Below are positions 3,649 through 23,677 of a stretch of DNA of 64,000 bases, one piece after another. The notes under the pieces are model-generated. The model was given only the letters and a program-made list of their open reading frames with translations. It did not search any database and was not told the origin of the DNA. The first letter of the stretch is position 1. Every line of letters starts with the position of its first letter. The stretch covers positions 62,001 through 126,000 of the forward strand of contig CALHUI010000002.1 of NCBI GenBank assembly GCA_938039675.1, read 5' to 3'. A program made the position numbers and the translations under genes. The stretch comes from an uncultured Cytophagales bacterium (GTDB taxonomy: Bacteria > Bacteroidota > Bacteroidia > Cytophagales > Thermoflexibacteraceae).

Positions 3649-6123
3649 ATGCTTGTTACCAAACGCAACGGGACAACCGAAACCGTCAGAATCGAGAAAA
3701 TTACGGCTCGTATTGAAAAGCTTTGCTATGGGCTGGACATGAACTACGTGGATGTATTCCAGATTACACAGCGCGTTATACAAGGAATGTATGACAAAAT
3801 AACAACCGTAGAGCTGGACAATCTGGCAGCAGAGACAGCGGCTTCCATGACAACCCGCCACCCTGACTATGCGGTACTTGCCGCCCGTATTGCGATTTCC
3901 AATTTGCACAAAGAAACCAGTAAGTCTTTTTCAAGCACTGTTAAAAGACTTTACAACTACATTGACCCTAAAACAGGCGAAAATGCGGCACTGATTTCCA
4001 AAGAGGTTTACGAAATAGTTCGGAAGAATGCGGCATTTTTAGATTCTGTCATTATCTACGACCGCGATTTTAATTACGATTATTTCGGATTTAAAACACT
4101 GGAGCGCTCTTATCTGTTGCGCATGGACGGCAAAGTAGTAGAGCGCCCACAGCACATGCTGATGCGCGTGGCCATCGGTATCCATATGAACGACATCGAG
4201 GCTGCCATCGAGACCTACAACTTGATGTCGGAAAAGTGGTTTACCCATGCCACGCCGACGCTATTCAACGCCGGCACGCCAAAACCGCAACTCTCATCTT
4301 GCTTCCTGCTAACTATGCAGGAAGACAGTGTGGACGGTATTTACGATACCTTGAAACAATGTGCCAAAATTTCGCAGTCTGCCGGAGGTATTGGTCTAAG
4401 CATTCATAACATCCGCGCTACGGGAAGCTACATTAAAGGAACGAACGGTACATCTAACGGTATTGTGCCGATGCTCCGCGTATTTAATGATACAGCCCGT
4501 TATATTGACCAAGGAGGCGGTAAGCGCAAAGGTGCTTTTGCTATTTATTTGGAACCTTGGCACGCCGATATATTTGACTTTTTACAACTCAAAAAAAACC
4601 ATGGCAAAGAAGAACTTCGTGCCCGCGACTTGTTCTATGCCTTGTGGATACCTGACCTGTTCATGAAGCGTGTAGAGGCAGATGAAGAATGGTCTCTTTT
4701 TTGCCCCAATGAAGCCCCCGGCTTGTCCGATTGCTACGGAGAAGAATTTGAGCGCCTCTATGAACGGTATGAGCGCGAAGGCCGTGCCCGCAAAGTTGTG
4801 CGTGCGCAGGATTTGTGGTTTGAAATATTGGAAACGCAGACCGAAACCGGTGTGCCTTATATGCTCTACAAAGACCATTGCAACCGCAAAAGCAACCAGA
4901 AAAACTTGGGTACTATCAAGTCCAGCAACCTGTGTACGGAGATTATAGAATATACGTCTAAGGACGAGGTGGCTGTTTGTAACCTTGCTTCGCTGGCACT
5001 TCCCAAGTTTGTTCATGAAGGTAAATTTGACCATCAGAGACTCTATGAGGTTACCAAAGTGGTAACGCGCAACCTAAACAAGGTAATAGATATTAACTAT
5101 TATCCGGTGGAAGAGGCGCGCCGCTCCAACATGCGCCATCGCCCGATTGGCTTGGGGGTACAGGGTTTGGCCGATGTGTTCATCATGCTGCGTATGCCGT
5201 TTGATTCGGAAGAAGCCCGCGGCCTGAACAGAGACATTTTTGAAACTATCTACTACGCTGCCGTAGAAGCATCTATGGAACTTGCTCAGAAATACGGCAC
5301 TTACGAAACCTATCAGGGGTCGCCCATGTCGCAAGGCTTGTTCCAGTTCGATATGTGGGGTGTAACGCCATCTTCTGGCCGCTGGGACTGGGAGGGGCTT
5401 CGCAAAAAAGTGCTGGAGCACGGTGTCCGCAATTCATTGCTGGTAGCACCCATGCCTACGGCTTCTACATCCCAAATTTTGGGCAATAACGAGTGTTTTG
5501 AGCCTTATACTTCAAATATTTACACTCGCCGTGTGCTTTCAGGAGAGTTTATTGTGGTGAACAAACACCTGATGAAAGACCTGATTCGACTTGGTTTGTG
5601 GAATGAAACCATGAAAAATATGATTATTCAGGCCAACGGTTCTATCCAGCAGATTCCGGGGATTCCGCAAAGCCTCAAAGATATTTACCGCACAGTGTGG
5701 GAGATTTCGCAGAAGGCTATTATTGAAATGGCAGCCGACCGCGGCCCTTACATTTGCCAAAGCCAAAGTCTTAACATCCATATTCAGGAGCCCAATTTTG
5801 GTAAGCTGACTTCTATGCACTTTTATGCGTGGAAGAAAGGTCTGAAAACCGGTATGTACTACCTGCGTACACGTCCTGCTGCCGATGCCATTAAGTTTAC
5901 GGTGGACAAGGCTATGCTGCAGCAGGTGCAGGGGCAATTGGAGAGTGTAGCTGCCGGACAACCTGTTACTACTATTACTACTACTTTTTACGAGAAAAAG
6001 TCCGTACCGACCGAGATGCTGCGCGCCACTCCTGCCACAACCAAGGAAGACTACGAGCAAAAGCGTCAGGATATGTCCTGCTCGTTAGACGACCCCGAAA
6101 GTTGTGAAGCCTGCAGCGCATAG
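3649..6123 (+). CDS. nrdA: ribonucleoside-diphosphate reductase, alpha subunit
   Basis: The 824-residue class I large subunit, which reduces ribonucleoside diphosphates to deoxyribonucleotides in the cytosol and needs a radical-generating beta subunit. Residues 1-95 form an ATP-cone, the allosteric activity domain. The redox cysteine lies in QLSSCFLL (Cys218). The active-site loop SSNLCTE holds Asn427, Cys429 and Glu431. [19 protein letters not shown] is the conserved barrel motif. The C-terminal tail ends CEACSA (Cys819, Cys822), the shuttle cysteine pair that is re-reduced by thioredoxin. Everything needed for catalysis is visible. The beta-subunit gene nrdB is not adjacent on either side, which is unusual but not rare in this phylum. 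A strong terminator follows. Confidence 0.97.
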
Positions 6124-6219: not shown

Positions 6220-7455
6220 TTACTGCTTTACATCGCCGTTTTTAGATATTTTTACCACTAAATGGTCGGTAGTTTCGCCTTCATTGTAGCCGGCAATAAT
6301 AAAGTCGCCGTTTACATCTTCTGCAATGCCGTAGGCGCGCTGGTCGCCGTTGCCGCCAATAGTTTTTCGCCACAGGGTTTTGCCTTGGTCGTCGAGGAGC
6401 ATAACGAAGGCGTTATTACCTTCTTTACTTGTATTTTCATTGTTGGCATCAGGTACGAATATATCCACATATCCTGCTACAACAATTTTACCGTCCTTTG
6501 TAACCAATAGGTCTAAGGCTTCGTCGGTGCTGGTGGTACCGGTTGTGGTTTCCCATACCTTTGTACCTTTCGCATCGGTCTTTACAACCCATATATCGTG
6601 GCTGCCTTCTTTGGCAAAAGAGTAGGTATAACCGGCAAGCACAAATCCGCCGTCCTGTGTTTGAGCAATGGCATTGGCTTGTTCACCCATTTTGCCGCCA
6701 TAGGTTTGTTCCCATATTTTGAAGCCTTCTTTATCAAGAGCTATCAGCCAGAAGTTCCAAGCCAATTTACCTTGGTGGCGCACTTCTTTGCTGCCTACAA
6801 TCATAAAACCGCCTTCTTTAGTAGTAATTACCTGTGTACCCATTTCGCTATTATTGGGCAACCCAAACTCGCGTTTCCATATCAAATCGCCTTTTTCGTT
6901 GCTTTTGATAAGCATAATGTCAGATTTTCCGGTTGTGATTTTAGTAGCATTGGCAAGAATGACGAAACTTCCGTCTTCCAATTGAATGACAGAACGGGCT
7001 TCATCTATGCTGTCATCGTCGCCAAATATTTTTGCCCATTGGCGGTCGCCGTTTTTGTCTAATTTGATAACCCATACGTCTTTCATGTCAGGGCCGCCGC
7101 CATAGGAGTCGGAAGAGCCAACCACCATAAAGCCGCCATCACGGGTTTCGCAAAGGGCGAAGGCTTCTTCGGTTTCCTGACCGCCATAGTTTTTGTCCCA
7201 TATAACAGAACCGTTATTGTCTAACTTGACGATATTGAAGTTCATATCCATTGAGCCAACACCATAAGAATTGGACCTTCCGGCTACGACCACACCGCTA
7301 CCAGATTTCAACGCCACAATGTCAGCGGATGCATCGTAATTTTTACCTCCAAAAACCTTGTAAAAGGCTGCCAGATGTTGCGGACTGTTCAACAGAACAT
7401 GCCACGGATTGGGAGAGCTCAGCAGCATCAAAGTGAGTAAAACTATTGGCTTCAT
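6220..7455 (-). CDS. secreted repeat protein, probable beta-propeller
   Basis: A 411-residue protein with a hydrophobic N-terminus (residues about 1-20) that looks like a signal peptide. The rest is about six to seven repeats of roughly 50 residues. Each carries a pattern like GGFxVxGxSxSxG...DxWVIKLDxNGxxxWxKxYGG, starting near residue 35 and continuing to the end. Such repeats form propeller-like folds in exported Bacteroidota proteins. No catalytic motif is visible and no type IX sorting domain is present at the C-terminus, since the last repeat ends at the stop codon. The function is unknown; a structural or binding role is inference. Neighbours give no hint: it converges on nrdA and diverges from pdeM. 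Confidence 0.75.
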   Translation of the reverse strand: MKPIVLLTLMLLSSPNPWHVLLNSPQHLAAFYKVFGGKNYDASADIVALKSGSGVVVAGRSNSYGVGSMDMNFNIVKLDNNGSVIWDKNYGGQETEEAFALCETRDGGFMVVGSSDSYGGGPDMKDVWVIKLDKNGDRQWAKIFGDDDSIDEARSVIQLEDGSFVILANATKITTGKSDIMLIKSNEKGDLIWKREFGLPNNSEMGTQVITTKEGGFMIVGSKEVRHQGKLAWNFWLIALDKEGFKIWEQTYGGKMGEQANAIAQTQDGGFVLAGYTYSFAKEGSHDIWVVKTDAKGTKVWETTTGTTSTDEALDLLVTKDGKIVVAGYVDIFVPDANNENTSKEGNNAFVMLLDDQGKTLWRKTIGGNGDQRAYGIAEDVNGDFIIAGYNEGETTDHLVVKISKNGDVKQ

Positions 7456-7561
7456 AAAGGATAGATTGTTGTTCTGATGTTCAAATTATTAATGCGATAA
7501 ACGGGAAAATATTGTGCGTTAATAAGGATGTAATAACTTCACAGGAAAATCCGTCGCAAAA

Positions 7562-8236: not shown

Positions 8237-9928
8237 ATGAGGAATCGCAAAATCCGCAAATGGGAAGACATCCTGCAATGGGTAGCCGTTGCATTGGGAC
8301 TTTTGTGTATGAATCTGTTTATCAGTAGCTTTTTCTTTCGGCTTGATTTGACAGAAGACAAACGCTATTCCATTGCGCCCGGCACTCGCCAATTGCTCAA
8401 GAATCTGGACAACAACATCTACGTAGAAATATACTTAGCCGGTGAACTGAATGCCGGATTTAAACGCCTGCAAGCTGCTATTCGGGAAACGCTGGAAGAA
8501 TTTAACGCTTACAGCAACAATAAAGTCCAATATCGGTTTATTGACCCCGAGTCGGCAGGTAACCCTGAGCAGCGCGGTGCTTTTCAGCGAGAACTGATTA
8601 ATGCGGGCATTCAGCCAACTAACTTGTTTGAAAATGTGGATGGTAAGCGGATTCAACGCCTGATTTTCCCCGGTGCGATTGTGCGTTCGGGTACGCGGCA
8701 GGGAGCAGTCAATCTGCTCAAAGGTAATTTGGCAGCCTCGGCACAAGAGCGGCTCAACCAATCGGTAGAAAGCGTAGAGTTTGAACTTGCCAATGCTATC
8801 AGAAAAGTTACCCGACAACAAAAACCCCGCATAGCACTTATACAAGGACATTCGGAGCTCAACAGCCTGCCTATAGGAGACCTCAAACTGAGCATGGATG
8901 AACATTTCATTACCGAAGAAGTCCGGTTGGACAATGACAGTGCGCTGGCAAACTATCAGGCGGCTGTTATTATTCAACCGAAAGTGCCTTATACCGAAGC
9001 GGAAAAATTCCGTTTAGACCAATTCATTATGCGCGGCGGCAAAGTGCTGTTCATGCTGGATATGGTACAGATGAATTTAGACAGTATTGCCATTGGTGGC
9101 GCTTATGCTTTCGGCTACGATTTAAATCTGGACGATATGCTATTCCGATATGGGGTGCGTGCCAATATGGATTTGGTACAAGATATGCAAATGGGTACGG
9201 TTATCATCAATGTGGGGCAGTTTGGCAATGCGCCTAACCTGCAACCTGTTCCGTGGCCGTATTACGTATTGGCCAATCAGTTTGGCAAACACCCGATTAC
9301 CCGCAACCTGAATGCGGTTTATACCAAATTTACGAGCAGTATAGATACGGTCAAATCCAAAGGAGAAGTCAAAAAAATTCCTTTGCTGATGACTAACCAG
9401 TATTCCCGTATTCGCCGTGCACCTACGATTGTGAGTTTAGACGAGCTGAAAAATGATGTAGAGCCTGCCAAGTTTAATCAAAGCCATATTCCGTTGGCTT
9501 ATTTGCTGGAAGGCCGTTTTCATTCGCTTTTCCGTAATCGGTTTGCACCCGAAGGCATTGCCGAAGGAACAAAAGTGATTCAAGAAAGCGTCCCTACGCA
9601 GGTGGCAATTATTGCTGACGGGGATGTGGCGGTGAATGAATTAGACCGCCGCTCTCAGCAGCCGCTGCCGCTCGGCTTTGACCCTGTTACCAAGCAGACT
9701 TTTTCCAACAAAGACCTGATTATGAATACTTTAATCTACTTTACCGATGAAGATGGGCTACTCGAGGCAAGGTTGAAGGAAGTACGTATTCGTCCATTGG
9801 ACAAAATCCGTTTGACGGATGAGAAAACGCAATGGCAGGCATTGAATCTTGTTTTACCGTTACTGCTGACAGCTGCTTTGGGGGGGAAGTGGTACTATGT
9901 ACGCAAAAAACGCTATGAGAAAGTTTAA
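8237..9928 (+). CDS. gldG: gliding motility-associated ABC transporter protein GldG
   Basis: A 563-residue GldG protein, required with GldA and GldF for gliding motility in Flavobacterium-type bacteria. A membrane segment near residues 14-36 is followed by the characteristic RLDLTEDKRYSIAPGTRQLL block (about 36-55) and a long extracytoplasmic domain related to ABC-2-associated IFT52/GldG folds. A second membrane helix lies near the C-terminus (about 535-552), followed by a basic tail. Length and both anchors match the family. GldF, which normally precedes GldG or is fused to it, is not in the neighbouring DNA; pdeM is there instead. The stop codon overlaps the start of the next gene, implying translational coupling. 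Confidence 0.92.
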   Translation: MRNRKIRKWEDILQWVAVALGLLCMNLFISSFFFRLDLTEDKRYSIAPGTRQLLKNLDNNIYVEIYLAGELNAGFKRLQAAIRETLEEFNAYSNNKVQYRFIDPESAGNPEQRGAFQRELINAGIQPTNLFENVDGKRIQRLIFPGAIVRSGTRQGAVNLLKGNLAASAQERLNQSVESVEFELANAIRKVTRQQKPRIALIQGHSELNSLPIGDLKLSMDEHFITEEVRLDNDSALANYQAAVIIQPKVPYTEAEKFRLDQFIMRGGKVLFMLDMVQMNLDSIAIGGAYAFGYDLNLDDMLFRYGVRANMDLVQDMQMGTVIINVGQFGNAPNLQPVPWPYYVLANQFGKHPITRNLNAVYTKFTSSIDTVKSKGEVKKIPLLMTNQYSRIRRAPTIVSLDELKNDVEPAKFNQSHIPLAYLLEGRFHSLFRNRFAPEGIAEGTKVIQESVPTQVAIIADGDVAVNELDRRSQQPLPLGFDPVTKQTFSNKDLIMNTLIYFTDEDGLLEARLKEVRIRPLDKIRLTDEKTQWQALNLVLPLLLTAALGGKWYYVRKKRYEKV

Positions 9929-20465: not shown

Positions 20466-20566
20466 AAATTCACACGTTTAAATTCTGGGGATAATATGCA
20501 ATATTAAAAATTAAAACCGAATTGTGAAAAAAATGTTATGAATACTGAAACCCGTTTTTAAAAATC

Positions 20567-21004
20567 ATGCAATTTGTTATTCGTACGGATGTGAGTGCCG
20601 ACCTGCAAAAAGTTTGGGCAAACTTTAATGAAAATCTTTTTCAGGCACTTGTACCGCCTTTTCCGCCTATCAATTTATTGCGATTTGACGGCTCTCTGAA
20701 AAATGATGAAGTACATCTGGAACTTAATTTTTTACTTTTCAAACAAGTTTGGATTAGCAAAATTACCGAGCAGGCAGCCAAAGAAAATGAAATTTATTTT
20801 GTGGATGAAGGAATCAGACTGCCTTTTTTTCTGGGCTATTGGCGGCACAAACATTTGATGCAGGCACTGCCCGAGGGCGGCACGCGTATTACGGATGACA
20901 TCACGTTTGAAGCACCTATCAAAGCGTTGAGTTGGCTACTGTTCCCTGCCTTGTATTTGCAGTTTTTGTATCGGAAGCCTGTTTACAAACGGTATTTCAA
21001 ATAG
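20567..21004 (+). CDS. SRPBCC-like ligand-binding protein
   Basis: A 145-residue protein whose pattern fits the START/SRPBCC fold: beta strand, two short helices, a long beta sheet and a C-terminal helix. It opens with FVIRTDVSADLQKVWANFNENLF, and GGTRITDDITFEAP precedes the final helix. Such proteins bind lipids or aromatic ligands; no ligand can be named. It stands alone with a strong terminator 18 bases after the stop codon. Confidence 0.7.
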   Translation: MQFVIRTDVSADLQKVWANFNENLFQALVPPFPPINLLRFDGSLKNDEVHLELNFLLFKQVWISKITEQAAKENEIYFVDEGIRLPFFLGYWRHKHLMQALPEGGTRITDDITFEAPIKALSWLLFPALYLQFLYRKPVYKRYFK

Positions 21005-21022
21005 ATTGGCATCAATAAAATG

Positions 21023-21057
21023 AAAACCCGACAAGTTCAGCAGACCTGTCGGGTTTT
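21023..21057 (+). terminator. terminator after SRPBCC-like gene
   Basis: An 11-bp perfect stem (AAAACCCGACA with TGTCGGGTTTT) with a 13-base loop. It ends five bases before the left edge of the proposed gene cassette. Confidence 0.82.
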
Positions 21058-21147
21058 TCCGGTTGTGCCTCACTGTAAAGAAAAAAACGAGAAATTGAAA
21101 CCAAATCACAAGTAATTACGTTGTAAATACGAAAAACGTAAAATTTG

Positions 21148-21390
21148 ATGAATATGCAAGTTTCAGTAATTCAAGTGGGCAACTCAAAAGGGATTAGATT
21201 AAGCAAAACCCTTTTAGACAAGTACCAAATCACCGACAAGGTAGAACTTGTTTTGGAGGATGATTATATTGTGCTAAAACCTGTTGCCGAACCCCGAAAA
21301 AATTGGGAAGAAGCCTTTGCTGAAATGCACCGTAACCGAGACGACAAATTGCTTATTGACAGTGTGTTTGAAAATGAAAATTGGGACTAA
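21148..21390 (+). CDS. mazE: AbrB/MazE-family antitoxin
   Basis: An 80-residue protein starting at the ATG at 21148; a TTG directly before it is less likely. The AbrB-type swapped-hairpin DNA-binding domain is visible at the N-terminus: VSVIQVGNSKGIRLSKTLL, then VELVLEDDYIVLKPV (about residues 4-50). The tail is acidic and probably unfolded until it binds the toxin. It would bind and neutralise the MazF-type toxin encoded two bases downstream and repress their shared promoter, as known for the family. The pair lies inside a putative attC-bounded cassette. Confidence 0.88.
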   Translation: MNMQVSVIQVGNSKGIRLSKTLLDKYQITDKVELVLEDDYIVLKPVAEPRKNWEEAFAEMHRNRDDKLLIDSVFENENWD

Positions 21391-21392
21391 AA

Positions 21393-21719
21393 ATGACGAC
21401 TTTTTTGCAGTATGAAATTGTTGTTGTCAATTTAGACCCAACAATGGGGAGTGAAATCAAGAAAAAACGACCTTGCCTCATTGTTTCACCCAACGAAATG
21501 AATAAACACTTGGCAACAGTCGTAGTTTGCCCAATAACTTCTCAGTCAAAAAACTATCCGACAAGAGTGAGTTTTGAGTTAGAAGGACAAACGAATTGGA
21601 TAGTGATAGACCAAATTCGCACCATAGACAAGAGCCGACTAACGAAAACGATAGGACATTTGGACGATGAAACCATTGAACAAGTGAAGGCAATCATCAA
21701 AGAAACTTATGTAGACTAA
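21393..21719 (+). CDS. mazF: MazF/PemK-family mRNA interferase toxin
   Basis: A 108-residue protein starting at the ATG at 21393, two bases after the antitoxin stop. An in-frame TTG at 21381 inside mazE is a less likely start. Family features are the opening VVVNLDPTMGSEIKKKRPCLIVS (the GSE..K.RP core of MazF), VVVCPITSQ, and the C-terminal IDQIRTIDKSRLTKTIG. These are the residues around the RNA-binding groove and the catalytic Arg of MazF. It cleaves single-stranded RNA at short sequences in the family; the specificity here cannot be read. Full length, apparently intact. Confidence 0.92.
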   Translation: MTTFLQYEIVVVNLDPTMGSEIKKKRPCLIVSPNEMNKHLATVVVCPITSQSKNYPTRVSFELEGQTNWIVIDQIRTIDKSRLTKTIGHLDDETIEQVKAIIKETYVD

Positions 21720-21731
21720 AAAAACAGCGAA

Positions 21732-21864
21732 GGCACAACATTGGCTTGGCGAAAAGCGGGGCTGAGGTGCTAATCTGTGGGGCAGTGCTTTTTATTTACA
21801 TTTGTGCTTGTGGGAAGTCTGGTGCTGTTAAATCCCCGCCTTCGCCAAGCCCTATTCGTTATAC
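21732..21864 (+). repeat. attC-like recombination site
   Basis: A 133-base imperfect inverted repeat with attC order. R'' is GCACAAC (21733-21739), L'' is GGCTTGGCGAA (21743-21753) and L' is TTCGCCAAGCC (21841-21851, a perfect complement of L''). R' is GTTATAC (21858-21864). The inner GCGGGG/CCCCGC also pairs. R'' and R' pair fully only on the bottom strand, using G-T wobbles, which is the strand that folds in attC recombination. The length resembles long attC sites such as those of Vibrio superintegrons. It starts 13 bases after the mazF stop. Confidence 0.55.
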
Positions 21865-21881
21865 GCCGATTGCAATATGCG

Positions 21882-22382
21882 CTAATTCACTTTTGTATAA
21901 ACGGTTTCTTTTTCGTAAAAGAAACTCAACTTGTCGTTTTCCTGAATGAAACTGCGCAGTGCTGCCGAATTATCAAACTTTTCGCGCACATTTTCGGTAA
22001 CGGGCAGCAGTGTAATTTTATTGCCGTTGGCAGATTGCAATTTAAAAATCAGAAAATCTGCATTAGGTACGGGGTTGGTTCCTTGGCGCGTCATTTTTAC
22101 GTTGAGAAAAGTCAAGTCGCCGATAGTTGAAGTATGCGCCACATAGGTTTTGCGCTCTACCGCACCTTCTATTTTGTGTGTATGTTCTACAATTTGATAG
22201 ATATTTTCATCGACTTTTGAGATGTCGTAAAAATCTTTTCCCGAAACATCTACCTTCCATCTGCCGAGCCATTCTCCTTTTACCGGCTGATTGGGTTCAT
22301 CCACCGGCACGGGTGATTGGTAAGGGCAGGCGGTGCAAAAAAACAAAAGGGCGAGTAAACCAAACAAACTGAACTTTTTCAT
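21882..22382 (-). CDS. lipoprotein of unknown function
   Basis: A 166-residue protein. The start is placed at the ATG at 22382, which gives MKKFSLFG, a hydrophobic core and the lipobox CTAC (Cys19); an upstream in-frame extension adds only a poor N-terminus. The mature protein is predicted mostly beta (GEWLGRWKVDVSGKD, TYVAHTSTIGDLTFLNVKM) and resembles small lipocalin-like lipoproteins of the phylum. No active site was recognised. It is encoded just downstream of an M16 protease gene on the same strand. Confidence 0.72.
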   Translation of the reverse strand: MKKFSLFGLLALLFFCTACPYQSPVPVDEPNQPVKGEWLGRWKVDVSGKDFYDISKVDENIYQIVEHTHKIEGAVERKTYVAHTSTIGDLTFLNVKMTRQGTNPVPNADFLIFKLQSANGNKITLLPVTENVREKFDNSAALRSFIQENDKLSFFYEKETVYTKVN

Positions 22383-22435
22383 GGTCGTCATAAAATTTAG
22401 CTGTAGTAAAAAGCGCAATTGTCACGCCAAAAAAA

Positions 22436-23677
22436 TTATTTATTTTTGGCGTGGTAATACAAAGTTGAACAATTTTCAGGGCACAGCACTTGTTTTGCCA
22501 CTTGGCGAATATCGACGGCAGTAACTGCCTGAATTTTATTCGCCTCTTGGTTGATGAGGTCAGGGTTGCCCAGAACGGCAGCATAAGCCAGTCCTGTGGC
22601 GCGGTTCAGCACTTCCATTTCACCGAAAATGAGCGTAGATTCTGCCTGATTTTTCACTTTTTGCAGCTCGCCTTCGGCAAGCAAATCCGCTTGGACTTCG
22701 GCTATTACTTCGCCGATGGCTTGGTCTGCCTCTTCCAAACTCACGCCTTGCGCGGGTTTAGCCGAAACGGTGAACAGCCCGTTGTCTATGCTGCCCAAAA
22801 TGCTGGCACTTACCGAAGTGAGAATGCGTTGTTCTTCAACCAATTTGTGGTACAGCCTTGAAGATTTGCTACGCCCCAGCACATCACTCAACAGGTCGGT
22901 GGCGTAGTATTCGGGTGCGAGGCGGTCGCACATGTGCCACACTTTGTAGAGCGCACTTACGGGCACATCTGCCTCTACGTGTTGGCTGCGGGCTTCGGTC
23001 TGTTGCGGTTCGCGGGGCAACTGCCGTTGGGGAACGTTCCCCGCAGGAATAGGCCCGAACCACTTGTCGGCAAGGCGCTTTACCTGTTCGGTTGTGGTAT
23101 TGCCCGCTACGACCAGAATGGCATTGTTGGGGCGGTAGTATTTGAAGAAAAATTCCTTCACATCGTCCATCGTAGCGTTTTCTATGTGCGAAATATCCCT
23201 CCCGATGGTTGCCCATTGGTAGGGGTGTACCTTGTATGCCATCGGGCGCAGCCGCAGCCAAACGTCACCGTAAGGTTGATTCAGGTAGCGCTGTTTATAT
23301 TCTTCAATCACCACTTTGCGCTGCACTTCCAACACTTCGGGGTTGAAACTGAGCGACAACATGCGGTCAGACTCTAACCAAAAGCCCGTTTCAACGTTTT
23401 GCGCCGGCAGTGTGAGGTAGTAGTTGGTAATATCGGCACTGGTGAAGGCGTTGTTTTCGCCGCCTGCTCTTTGCAGCGGCTCGTCATATTGCGGAATATT
23501 GGCAGAGCCGCCGAACATCAGGTGTTCAAACAGGTGTGCAAATCCGGTTTTATCGGGACGTTCATCCCGCGAGCCTACATCATACAATAGGTTCAGCACC
23601 ACCGTCGGAACGAAGTGGTCTTCGTGTACTAATACCCGCAAACCGTTATCTAATACAAATGAGTTGTAGTGAATCAT
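22436..23677 (-). CDS. M16 family zinc metallopeptidase
   Basis: A 413-residue peptidase of the pitrilysin family with the inverted zinc motif HLFEH (His48, Glu51, His52) and a downstream glutamate region (KVVIEEYKQR, about 124-133). These supply the catalytic base and the third zinc ligand. The second half is the inactive-type repeat that completes the clam-shell. There is no signal peptide, so it is probably cytosolic. The ATG at 23677 is chosen because a TAACTTTG box ends three bases before it; two codons further upstream is only a TTG. Substrate unknown; in many Bacteroidota two M16 genes are paired, but only one is present here. Confidence 0.9.
   Translation of the reverse strand: MIHYNSFVLDNGLRVLVHEDHFVPTVVLNLLYDVGSRDERPDKTGFAHLFEHLMFGGSANIPQYDEPLQRAGGENNAFTSADITNYYLTLPAQNVETGFWLESDRMLSLSFNPEVLEVQRKVVIEEYKQRYLNQPYGDVWLRLRPMAYKVHPYQWATIGRDISHIENATMDDVKEFFFKYYRPNNAILVVAGNTTTEQVKRLADKWFGPIPAGNVPQRQLPREPQQTEARSQHVEADVPVSALYKVWHMCDRLAPEYYATDLLSDVLGRSKSSRLYHKLVEEQRILTSVSASILGSIDNGLFTVSAKPAQGVSLEEADQAIGEVIAEVQADLLAEGELQKVKNQAESTLIFGEMEVLNRATGLAYAAVLGNPDLINQEANKIQAVTAVDIRQVAKQVLCPENCSTLYYHAKNK

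Follow-up and report, generated by a model that had tools for sequence, protein, structure and literature searches.

The closest described counterparts of the locus reported here are integrons, built from the integrase IntI, an attI site and attC sites and found also in sedentary chromosomal form, and the elements called CALINs, lone attC sites (SALINs) and attG insertions, terms that are reportedly connected with Loot et al. 2024. Bacteroidota are named among the integron-bearing phyla in passages of two papers (PMC8618304, PMC9668308), so parts of the arrays described below may already be on record as CALINs. A section of the IntegronFinder 2.0 paper names one complete Bacteroidetes integron, that of Salinibacter ruber (PMC9024848). 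According to excerpts of a recombinase survey, the IntI insertion is essential, yet not fully conserved in an integron-like subgroup (PMC8138268), and some of the array enzymes may therefore have been binned in that subgroup. An excerpt of a further paper states that the I2 domain was not identified outside IntI, presents it as the solution for handling attC and calls its origin a chicken-and-egg problem (PMC4792948). Among the papers listed by our literature searches, there is no account of an integron run by a recombinase with HARP-like repeats.

We analysed a stretch of 64,000 nucleotides (the window) from an uncultured Cytophagales bacterium. It contains a 796-bp segment (21063–21858, forward strand) that is missing in the relatives G002 and G003 and has a near-identical copy in G025; very probably, this segment is a lone gene cassette that belongs to an integron-like capture system found in Bacteroidota, one with a non-IntI recombinase. 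The system seems to be a widespread means of gene capture that is an integron in appearance and is run by another kind of recombinase. The segment encodes a MazF/PemK-family toxin of 107 aa (21396–21719, forward strand; PF02452, 4.7e-33, 114 bits against a cut-off of 23.1), preceded by an ORF for a candidate MazE-like antitoxin of 78 aa (21154–21390, forward strand). Of the mazE–mazF pair named in an earlier note on this DNA, the toxin is borne out by the 114-bit match; the 78-aa protein has no Pfam match at 1e-3, so its label 'mazE' rests on position. Judged from sequence, the toxin-antitoxin pair is one that entered the chromosome as a mobile gene cassette. Contig C4 of the same genome holds a diverged match to the mazE-like ORF, with no attC or mazF seen beside it. 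The mazEF relatives in G010, G008, G006 and G031 were not counted as the same cassette because their match is limited to the coding part and does not extend to the attC.

We then compared the insertion locus with that of related genomes. In G002, which belongs to the same genus, the locus is free of the cassette, and window positions 20500–21064 (97%) and 21855–22450 (95%) align to adjoining DNA. The two flank alignments meet there with a 3-base overlap in GTT, which forms the left junction at 21062–21064 and the right junction at 21858–21860 of the window (both on the forward strand), and the sequence from TT onwards at the right junction (TTATACGCC) is host DNA. Since the flanks meet at GTT in G002, the 796 bp were inserted at G^TT. 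As far as aligned genomes can show it, the crossover fell within GTT; the exact bond, G^TT, is placed by analogy and would follow the G. This is the empty site in a relative that had been suggested as a check, and it supports the earlier reading of a single mobile cassette inserted at G^TT, the bond within GTT being the conditional part. No target duplication beyond the shared GTT is seen at the insertion in this comparison. The host ORF on the 5' side encodes 145 aa (20567–21004, forward strand) and is kept beside the G002 empty site, and the one on the 3' side encodes 178 aa (21882–22418, reverse strand) and is 95% identical there. Between the 5' ORF and the cassette we read a terminator-like hairpin followed by a T run (21023–21057, forward strand), which is also present in the cassette-free G002 and ends five bases before the insertion point. 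The insertion point thus lies immediately 3' of this hairpin (window 21023–21062), and the hairpin with its T run bears a loose resemblance to the stem-TTTTCC-GTT half of R1-type attC sites (the family defined below).

The locus in G003 is without the cassette too, with a diverged intergenic stretch, and in G001 the two flanks sit on separate contigs. A copy of the cassette occurs in G025, from another family of the same order, with 94% DNA identity over query positions 506–1291, the attC included; its neighbour there is a further attC, and the junction holds a short repeat element. This short element, with the ends GTCAGTCTGTCCAAAA and TTTTGGACAGACTGAC, lies at the junction before mazEF on the reverse strand of contig C6 (locus L228, about 4761–5095). 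On contig C1 of the same genome (L063, from position 1842), a second mazEF cassette keeps the gene part and R'' and has a different attC hairpin, of the ATGTTTGCGAA type, as if hairpins had been exchanged.

The attachment site closes the cassette. An inverted repeat in attC order had been described behind mazF, and its motifs are where the earlier note put them: GTTGTGCC from 21062, the R'' sequence GGCACAAC at 21732–21739 and GTTATAC from 21858. On the forward strand, the R'' arm (AGGCACAAC, 21731–21739) is followed by the L'' arm GGCTTGGCGAA (21743–21753) and the L' arm TTCGCCAAGCC (21841–21851). The attC-like site as modelled, from AAC to GTT (21737–21860, forward strand), scores 115.7 bits with our covariance model R1, which was built from 32 sites, this one among them. 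The 5' end of the cassette, TTGTGCCT (21063–21070, forward strand), is complementary to its own R'' at all of 9 bases when the G at 21062 is taken as the first. The cassette start had indeed been recognised as the reverse complement of R''; the match covers 9 nt (GTTGTGCCT), and pairing resumes past a bulge. The further statement that the two arms pair fully on the bottom strand only was right in kind: with the host R', the pairs are G-T wobbles on the bottom strand and A-C on the top strand. Folded alone, the window site does not stand out from shuffled sequence: z is -1.3 on one strand and -1.4 on the other, and 18 of 200 shuffles fold as well on each. The support is comparative and comes from the 32 related sites. 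An Rfam search gave six sub-threshold matches, which we take as chance. In the attC loop of the aligned sites (window 21754–21840), GTGC recurs every 18–19 nt or so (34 of 64 spacings); a site has 3.0 copies on average, and a shuffled one 0.5.

The 32 sites, collected from the cassette's own genome and its relatives and including the window site, for the most part share one geometry. From the 5' end, AAC and a short spacer (usually 3 bases) lead into a stem of some 11 bp, which a mismatch or small bulge separates from an inner stem of some 6 bp. The long loop follows, and beyond it come the return arms, a second spacer, in most cases 6 bases in length, and the closing GTT. Of the stem cells, 96.2% are paired, and 63 cells are changed on both sides, against a shuffled mean of 18.2 and with none of 500 shuffles as high, for a structure that came from these same sequences; sliding the structure abolishes the signal. 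With R1, 228 of the 390 order genomes, from 95 of 129 genera, have a match at E <= 1e-3; in the phylum sample, which partly overlaps with that of the order, 118 of 296 genomes, from 70 of 140 genera, have one at E <= 1e-5. The covariance-model search proposed earlier was thus carried out with a model of our own, and at E <= 0.01 it found nine matches in the own genome, the window site and eight more, so that the cassette is no isolated oddity. None of the other eight is farther than 1.6 kb from a contig end, so assembly gaps may conceal arrays; two of the eight are consecutive cassettes on contig C10. The window hairpin itself recurs in the genome at 90% identity; we disregarded two further DNA matches, on contigs C31 and C33, which cover the terminator-like hairpin. 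On the 177-kb contig of the window (C2), the window site is the sole R1 match at E <= 0.01, as for a lone cassette (SALIN).

We then investigated which recombinase accompanies these sites. The IntI model TIGR02249 has no match over its cut-off in any of the 390 genomes of the order, and some of its strongest matches under that cut-off are tyrosine recombinases that neighbour R1 arrays. Of the first 37 recombinase loci by rank among these matches, 18 are followed downstream by R1 sites (E <= 1e-3). Ten of the 37 contigs end within 1.1 kb past the gene, a cut chosen afterwards, and the other 27 loci include all 18 positives; no R1 site at that threshold was found in the remaining 9 of the 27, where either the sites or the function of the recombinase differ. 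As many as 60 of 61 sites lie downstream of the recombinase and on its strand. Around other Xer-like recombinases (14 loci with 12 genes, 65 kb), there were no sites, in flanks of mostly 1.5 kb that are shorter than those of the test loci. G002 possesses a non-IntI recombinase on contig C27, ahead of an array of eight sites. The window's own assembly yielded neither such an array-type recombinase nor an integrase of the integron type, in agreement with the earlier remark that none lies near the cassette and extending it to the rest of the assembly.

The linkage is also seen in named genomes. We scanned the best 80 of more than 590 relatives, many of these 80 being other recombinases or short contigs, and found R1 sites (E <= 0.01) in 14 of the 80 loci, 12 of them with sites downstream on the recombinase strand and 2 on the other strand. 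The 12 include Flavobacterium aciduliphilum DSM 25663, Algoriphagus ornithinivorans DSM 15282, Winogradskyella ursingii, Algibacter onchidii, Zunongwangia mangrovi and Aquiflexum sp. TKW24L. On a Chryseobacterium plasmid (NZ_CP041688), five sites follow a recombinase that shares 44% identity with that of G004. Similar N-terminal stretches occur in recombinases of Undinarchaeales, Spirochaetota and Firmicutes MAGs (L259, L268 and L266), possibly from related systems with other sites; R1 has no match at E <= 0.01 in these loci.

The array recombinases contain the domains PF00589 and PF13495. For the two proteins scanned, from G006 and G004, the best NCBIfam match is the XerA-like family NF040815 (204 and 216 bits, cut-off 220), and TIGR02249 (cut-off 265) gives them 197 and 193 bits, split over two stretches. 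Residues 182–246 are passed over in the alignment to IntI4 (2a3v), and the top fold matches are XerA (5hxy) and IntI4 (2a3v). The spacing from KGxKDR to HxLRH is 58–63 aa in 40 of the 42 loci of the array set (it is not measurable in the other 2), against 100–101 aa in IntI1 and a Vibrio phage IntI, the two of four reference IntI in which it is measurable by motif; by this spacing, the array enzymes have no IntI insertion. In a tree of 57 rows, 23 recombinases beside R1 sites cluster together (92/96) and five IntI cluster apart (100/99), and a single clade of R1-linked recombinases and these five IntI is rejected (p-AU 0.009). The IntI rows are IntI1, three sequences from phage records and one from a MAG (L307) that was assigned by its spacing of 100 and a preliminary tree; a plasmid search with IntI1 gave only IntI1 among the matches listed. 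Since the deep branches are weak, an origin of the array recombinases independent of IntI is likely on this tree, not proven. IS91-linked recombinases of Pseudomonadota, 36–38% identical to the G004 recombinase, were considered as kin and rejected, as they fall in another clade.

At the N-terminus, 17 aligned recombinases share a stretch with the pattern F..d..l...k...g..Ws...k.W..p, which is kept loosely in L164 and L152 and is present, by eye, in up to three repeats. Several comparisons weakly support a likeness of these repeats to HARP (compare the HARP domain of SMARCAL1). The HARP family PF07443 scores 22.0 bits on the G175 protein (curated cut-off 25), and a Pfam HARP match of 1.2e-4 was obtained on one protein; among 22 N-termini, four match HARP at E <= 0.1 (best 4.7e-7) and 18 are without a match. 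A profile search matches SMARCAL1 HARP (PDB 4o66) with E 0.024, and Foldseek places HARP at ranks 1 and 2, with 4o66 first, at E 0.5. VIA-align of the N-terminal model was uninformative (best Z 4.6), with no HARP chain among the 50 rows listed.

An array of such cassettes is predicted to have, after the GTT of site n, bases complementary to those before the AAC of site n+1. We examined 74 consecutive pairs of scored sites in 18 chosen arrays, loci picked because sites were known there. Beyond GTT, 42 of the 74 junctions match at 6 of 6 bases, 7 at 5 of 6 and 25 at four or fewer, while perfect matches make up 1.2% of 7858 cross-locus control pairs. A site's own R'' and R' match on average at 2.8 of 6 bases, and random pairs at 2.3. 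The eight sites in series on G002 contig C27 give perfect matches at 7 of 7 junctions; weak junctions are found in the Chryseobacterium plasmid (1 of 4 close) and in G006 (0 of 3). We suspect that many of the failures reflect unscored sites or inserted repeats, a point checked for G025 C6 alone and noticed in G006 too. Three of the four attC sites of G006 have behind them a repeat with inverted ends, about 150 bp long (L068, about 5180–5332, 7391–7535 and 8809–8961). Arrays run to as many as 11 sites (L162, G357); L162–L164 were added to the array set because sites were already visible there.

In 48 cassettes matching at 8 or more of 9 bases, base 11 of the cassette start is always A (48 of 48) and stands opposite C in 40, which is an A-C mismatch on the top strand and a G-T wobble on the bottom strand. 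A like mismatch in the inner stem was found in 15 of the 21 sites (of 80) scorable by a simple rule. The bottom strand folds more stably in 40 of 48 re-joined circles, against 27 of 80 control windows, and in 30 of 48 in-array forms, with a small advantage in mean energy (-30.5 against -27.9 kcal/mol on the top strand); the window's own circle has no such strand difference (-30.5 and -30.2 kcal/mol). Circles are more stable than in-array forms in 45 of 48 cases. A spacer, mostly of 3/6 nt, is present, with one extra A in some sites, the window site included. Of the 25 loci in which a site lies downstream of a recombinase, 18 arrays were examined. In 17 of them, a GTT between the recombinase gene and the first attC marks a start of the first cassette, and of the 7 bases that follow this GTT at least 6 are complementary to the first R'', so that the region looks like an attI site in its sequence. 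A dyad like ACGCAA-TTGCGTnTATA precedes the first cassette clearly in about 7 of the 17 and is not evident in at least 4.

An ssb-like gene, like that of G004, is found in 16 of the 44 loci of the array set (for example, L214:12597–12932, L078:2562–2894 and L134:14396–14671). In 12 cases it lies directly behind the recombinase gene and in 2 just before it, once it is fused (G167), and once it is 1.7 kb away. It was found in none of the 80 named-genome loci and none of 13 control loci. Ten proteins of the G002 array (L214, C27) were scanned, and they match defence models of the PD-T4-10 (weakly for one of two genes), OLD/Gabija-like, caspase-type and AbiLi (297 bits) kinds, as well as GNAT, pentapeptide and other families. 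The array is thus rich in matches to anti-phage defence genes, and the MazEF pair of the window fits such cargo.

Comparison of genomes demonstrates, within the reach of sequence evidence, the cassette boundaries, the array logic, the linkage to the recombinase, the conserved stem and the empty site. The proposed platform would consist of four parts: a tyrosine recombinase in which HARP-like repeats, one to three in number, stand at the N-terminus, together with a SAM-like core-binding domain and a catalytic domain that lacks the IntI insertion; an ssb gene adjoining the recombinase in several families; an attI-like site ahead of the first cassette; and a cassette array, each cassette being closed by an attC hairpin some 130 nt long. 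No classical IntI is part of it. On leaving the array, a cassette would form a circle with full pairing between R'' and R', and the recombinase would bind the folded site on the bottom strand through its two arms. The usual target of insertion would be attI and the rarer one a chromosomal GTT, in this case a secondary GTT just past a host terminator, and the joining may have taken place in a cell or ancestor that carried the platform, which the sister genome G002 has. The covariation and the adjacent ssb genes are suggestive of recombination of a single-stranded, folded attC. Once inserted, the MazEF pair would help to retain the cassette through post-segregational killing, or may act in phage defence.

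Other origins of the segment can be weighed against this evidence. The earlier note had read it as an integron cassette, and what stands of that is the lone cassette, the attC-like site, G^TT and the empty site; its assignment to an ordinary (IntI) integron is not supported. An ordinary integron cassette could have been put into an attG-type site by a classical IntI that the cell carried for a time, perhaps on a plasmid, and the G^TT crossover, the R''/R' logic, the hairpin and the lone insertion are the products expected of IntI. One passage also reports that a class 1 integron takes distant (archaeal) attC sites (PMC9668308). However, no genome among the 390 of the order passes the IntI cut-off, the attC family is physically linked to another recombinase clade, and the platform is present in the sister genome G002; we consider an ordinary IntI origin, which the earlier reading implied, unlikely.

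The own genome does have two XerC/D-like genes, and hairpin integration by XerCD is described in an excerpt of the literature (PMC4792948), so that the host XerCD might have inserted a hairpin-bearing element, as with CTX-type phages. Yet none of the 12 Xer-like genes examined has an R1 site nearby and the hairpins track the recombinase with HARP-like repeats, which makes this origin highly improbable. The recurrence of the hairpin in the genome at 90% identity, together with MITE-like repeats beside some sites in relatives, might instead recall a MITE or transposon end with mazEF as its passenger. This is scarcely credible, for there is no target duplication beyond the shared GTT, the sites pair with their own cassette start and not as terminal repeats, the stems covary, and the arrays lie on one strand behind a recombinase. 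The lone cassette of a non-IntI capture system is thus the reading we prefer.

More broadly, we put forward, at about even odds, that integrons arose twice. A XerA-like recombinase of Bacteroidota would read the folded, single-stranded attC through HARP-like repeats (of the fork or annealing type) and not through the IntI insertion, with a dedicated SSB in some lineages; G-T/A-C marks in both arms would set the strand, and the mazEF of the window would be an off-target insertion. Searches based on IntI would overlook such a platform, which is found in a sizeable part of a major phylum and also on a plasmid of Chryseobacterium. An attI-like/attC platform with another recombinase would be a natural experiment on the evolution of hairpin recombination, and it would be a route for defence genes and toxin-antitoxin pairs through Bacteroidota.

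Compared with known systems, the window pair resembles type II toxin-antitoxin pairs of the MazEF/PemIK kind in having a PF02452 toxin after a small ORF, but it travels as a mobile cassette. With the XerA-like family NF040815 ('site-specific tyrosine recombinase/integron integrase'), the two array recombinases scanned share the best NCBIfam match over the whole catalytic part, whereas they stay below its cut-off of 220; the array recombinases also have an extra N-terminal domain and are linked to cassette arrays. Like CALINs, SALINs and attG insertions, the window holds a single attC cassette outside arrays, with no adjacent integrase, at GTT; its mother platform, unlike theirs, would be a HARP-recombinase system and not IntI. 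With integrons, the sedentary chromosomal ones included, the Bacteroidota system shares a tyrosine recombinase, an attI-like site and a one-strand array, the G^TT crossover and a cassette start complementary to its own R'', and the same kinds of cargo, namely defence genes (G002 array) and a toxin-antitoxin pair (window). Among the features of a strict integron, an attI-like site, attC hairpins in one orientation and insertion at GTT, by analogy at G^TT, are found in these sequences. The recombinase, in contrast, falls outside the IntI clade, lacks the IntI insertion and has HARP-like repeats; its gene points toward the array and has an ssb partner in several families. The hairpins differ too: their spacers mostly measure 3 and 6 nt, each arm has A-C/G-T marks, and the long loop repeats GTGC every 18–19 nt. 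By these predicted features, the system works like an integron, with an integrase from outside the IntI family.
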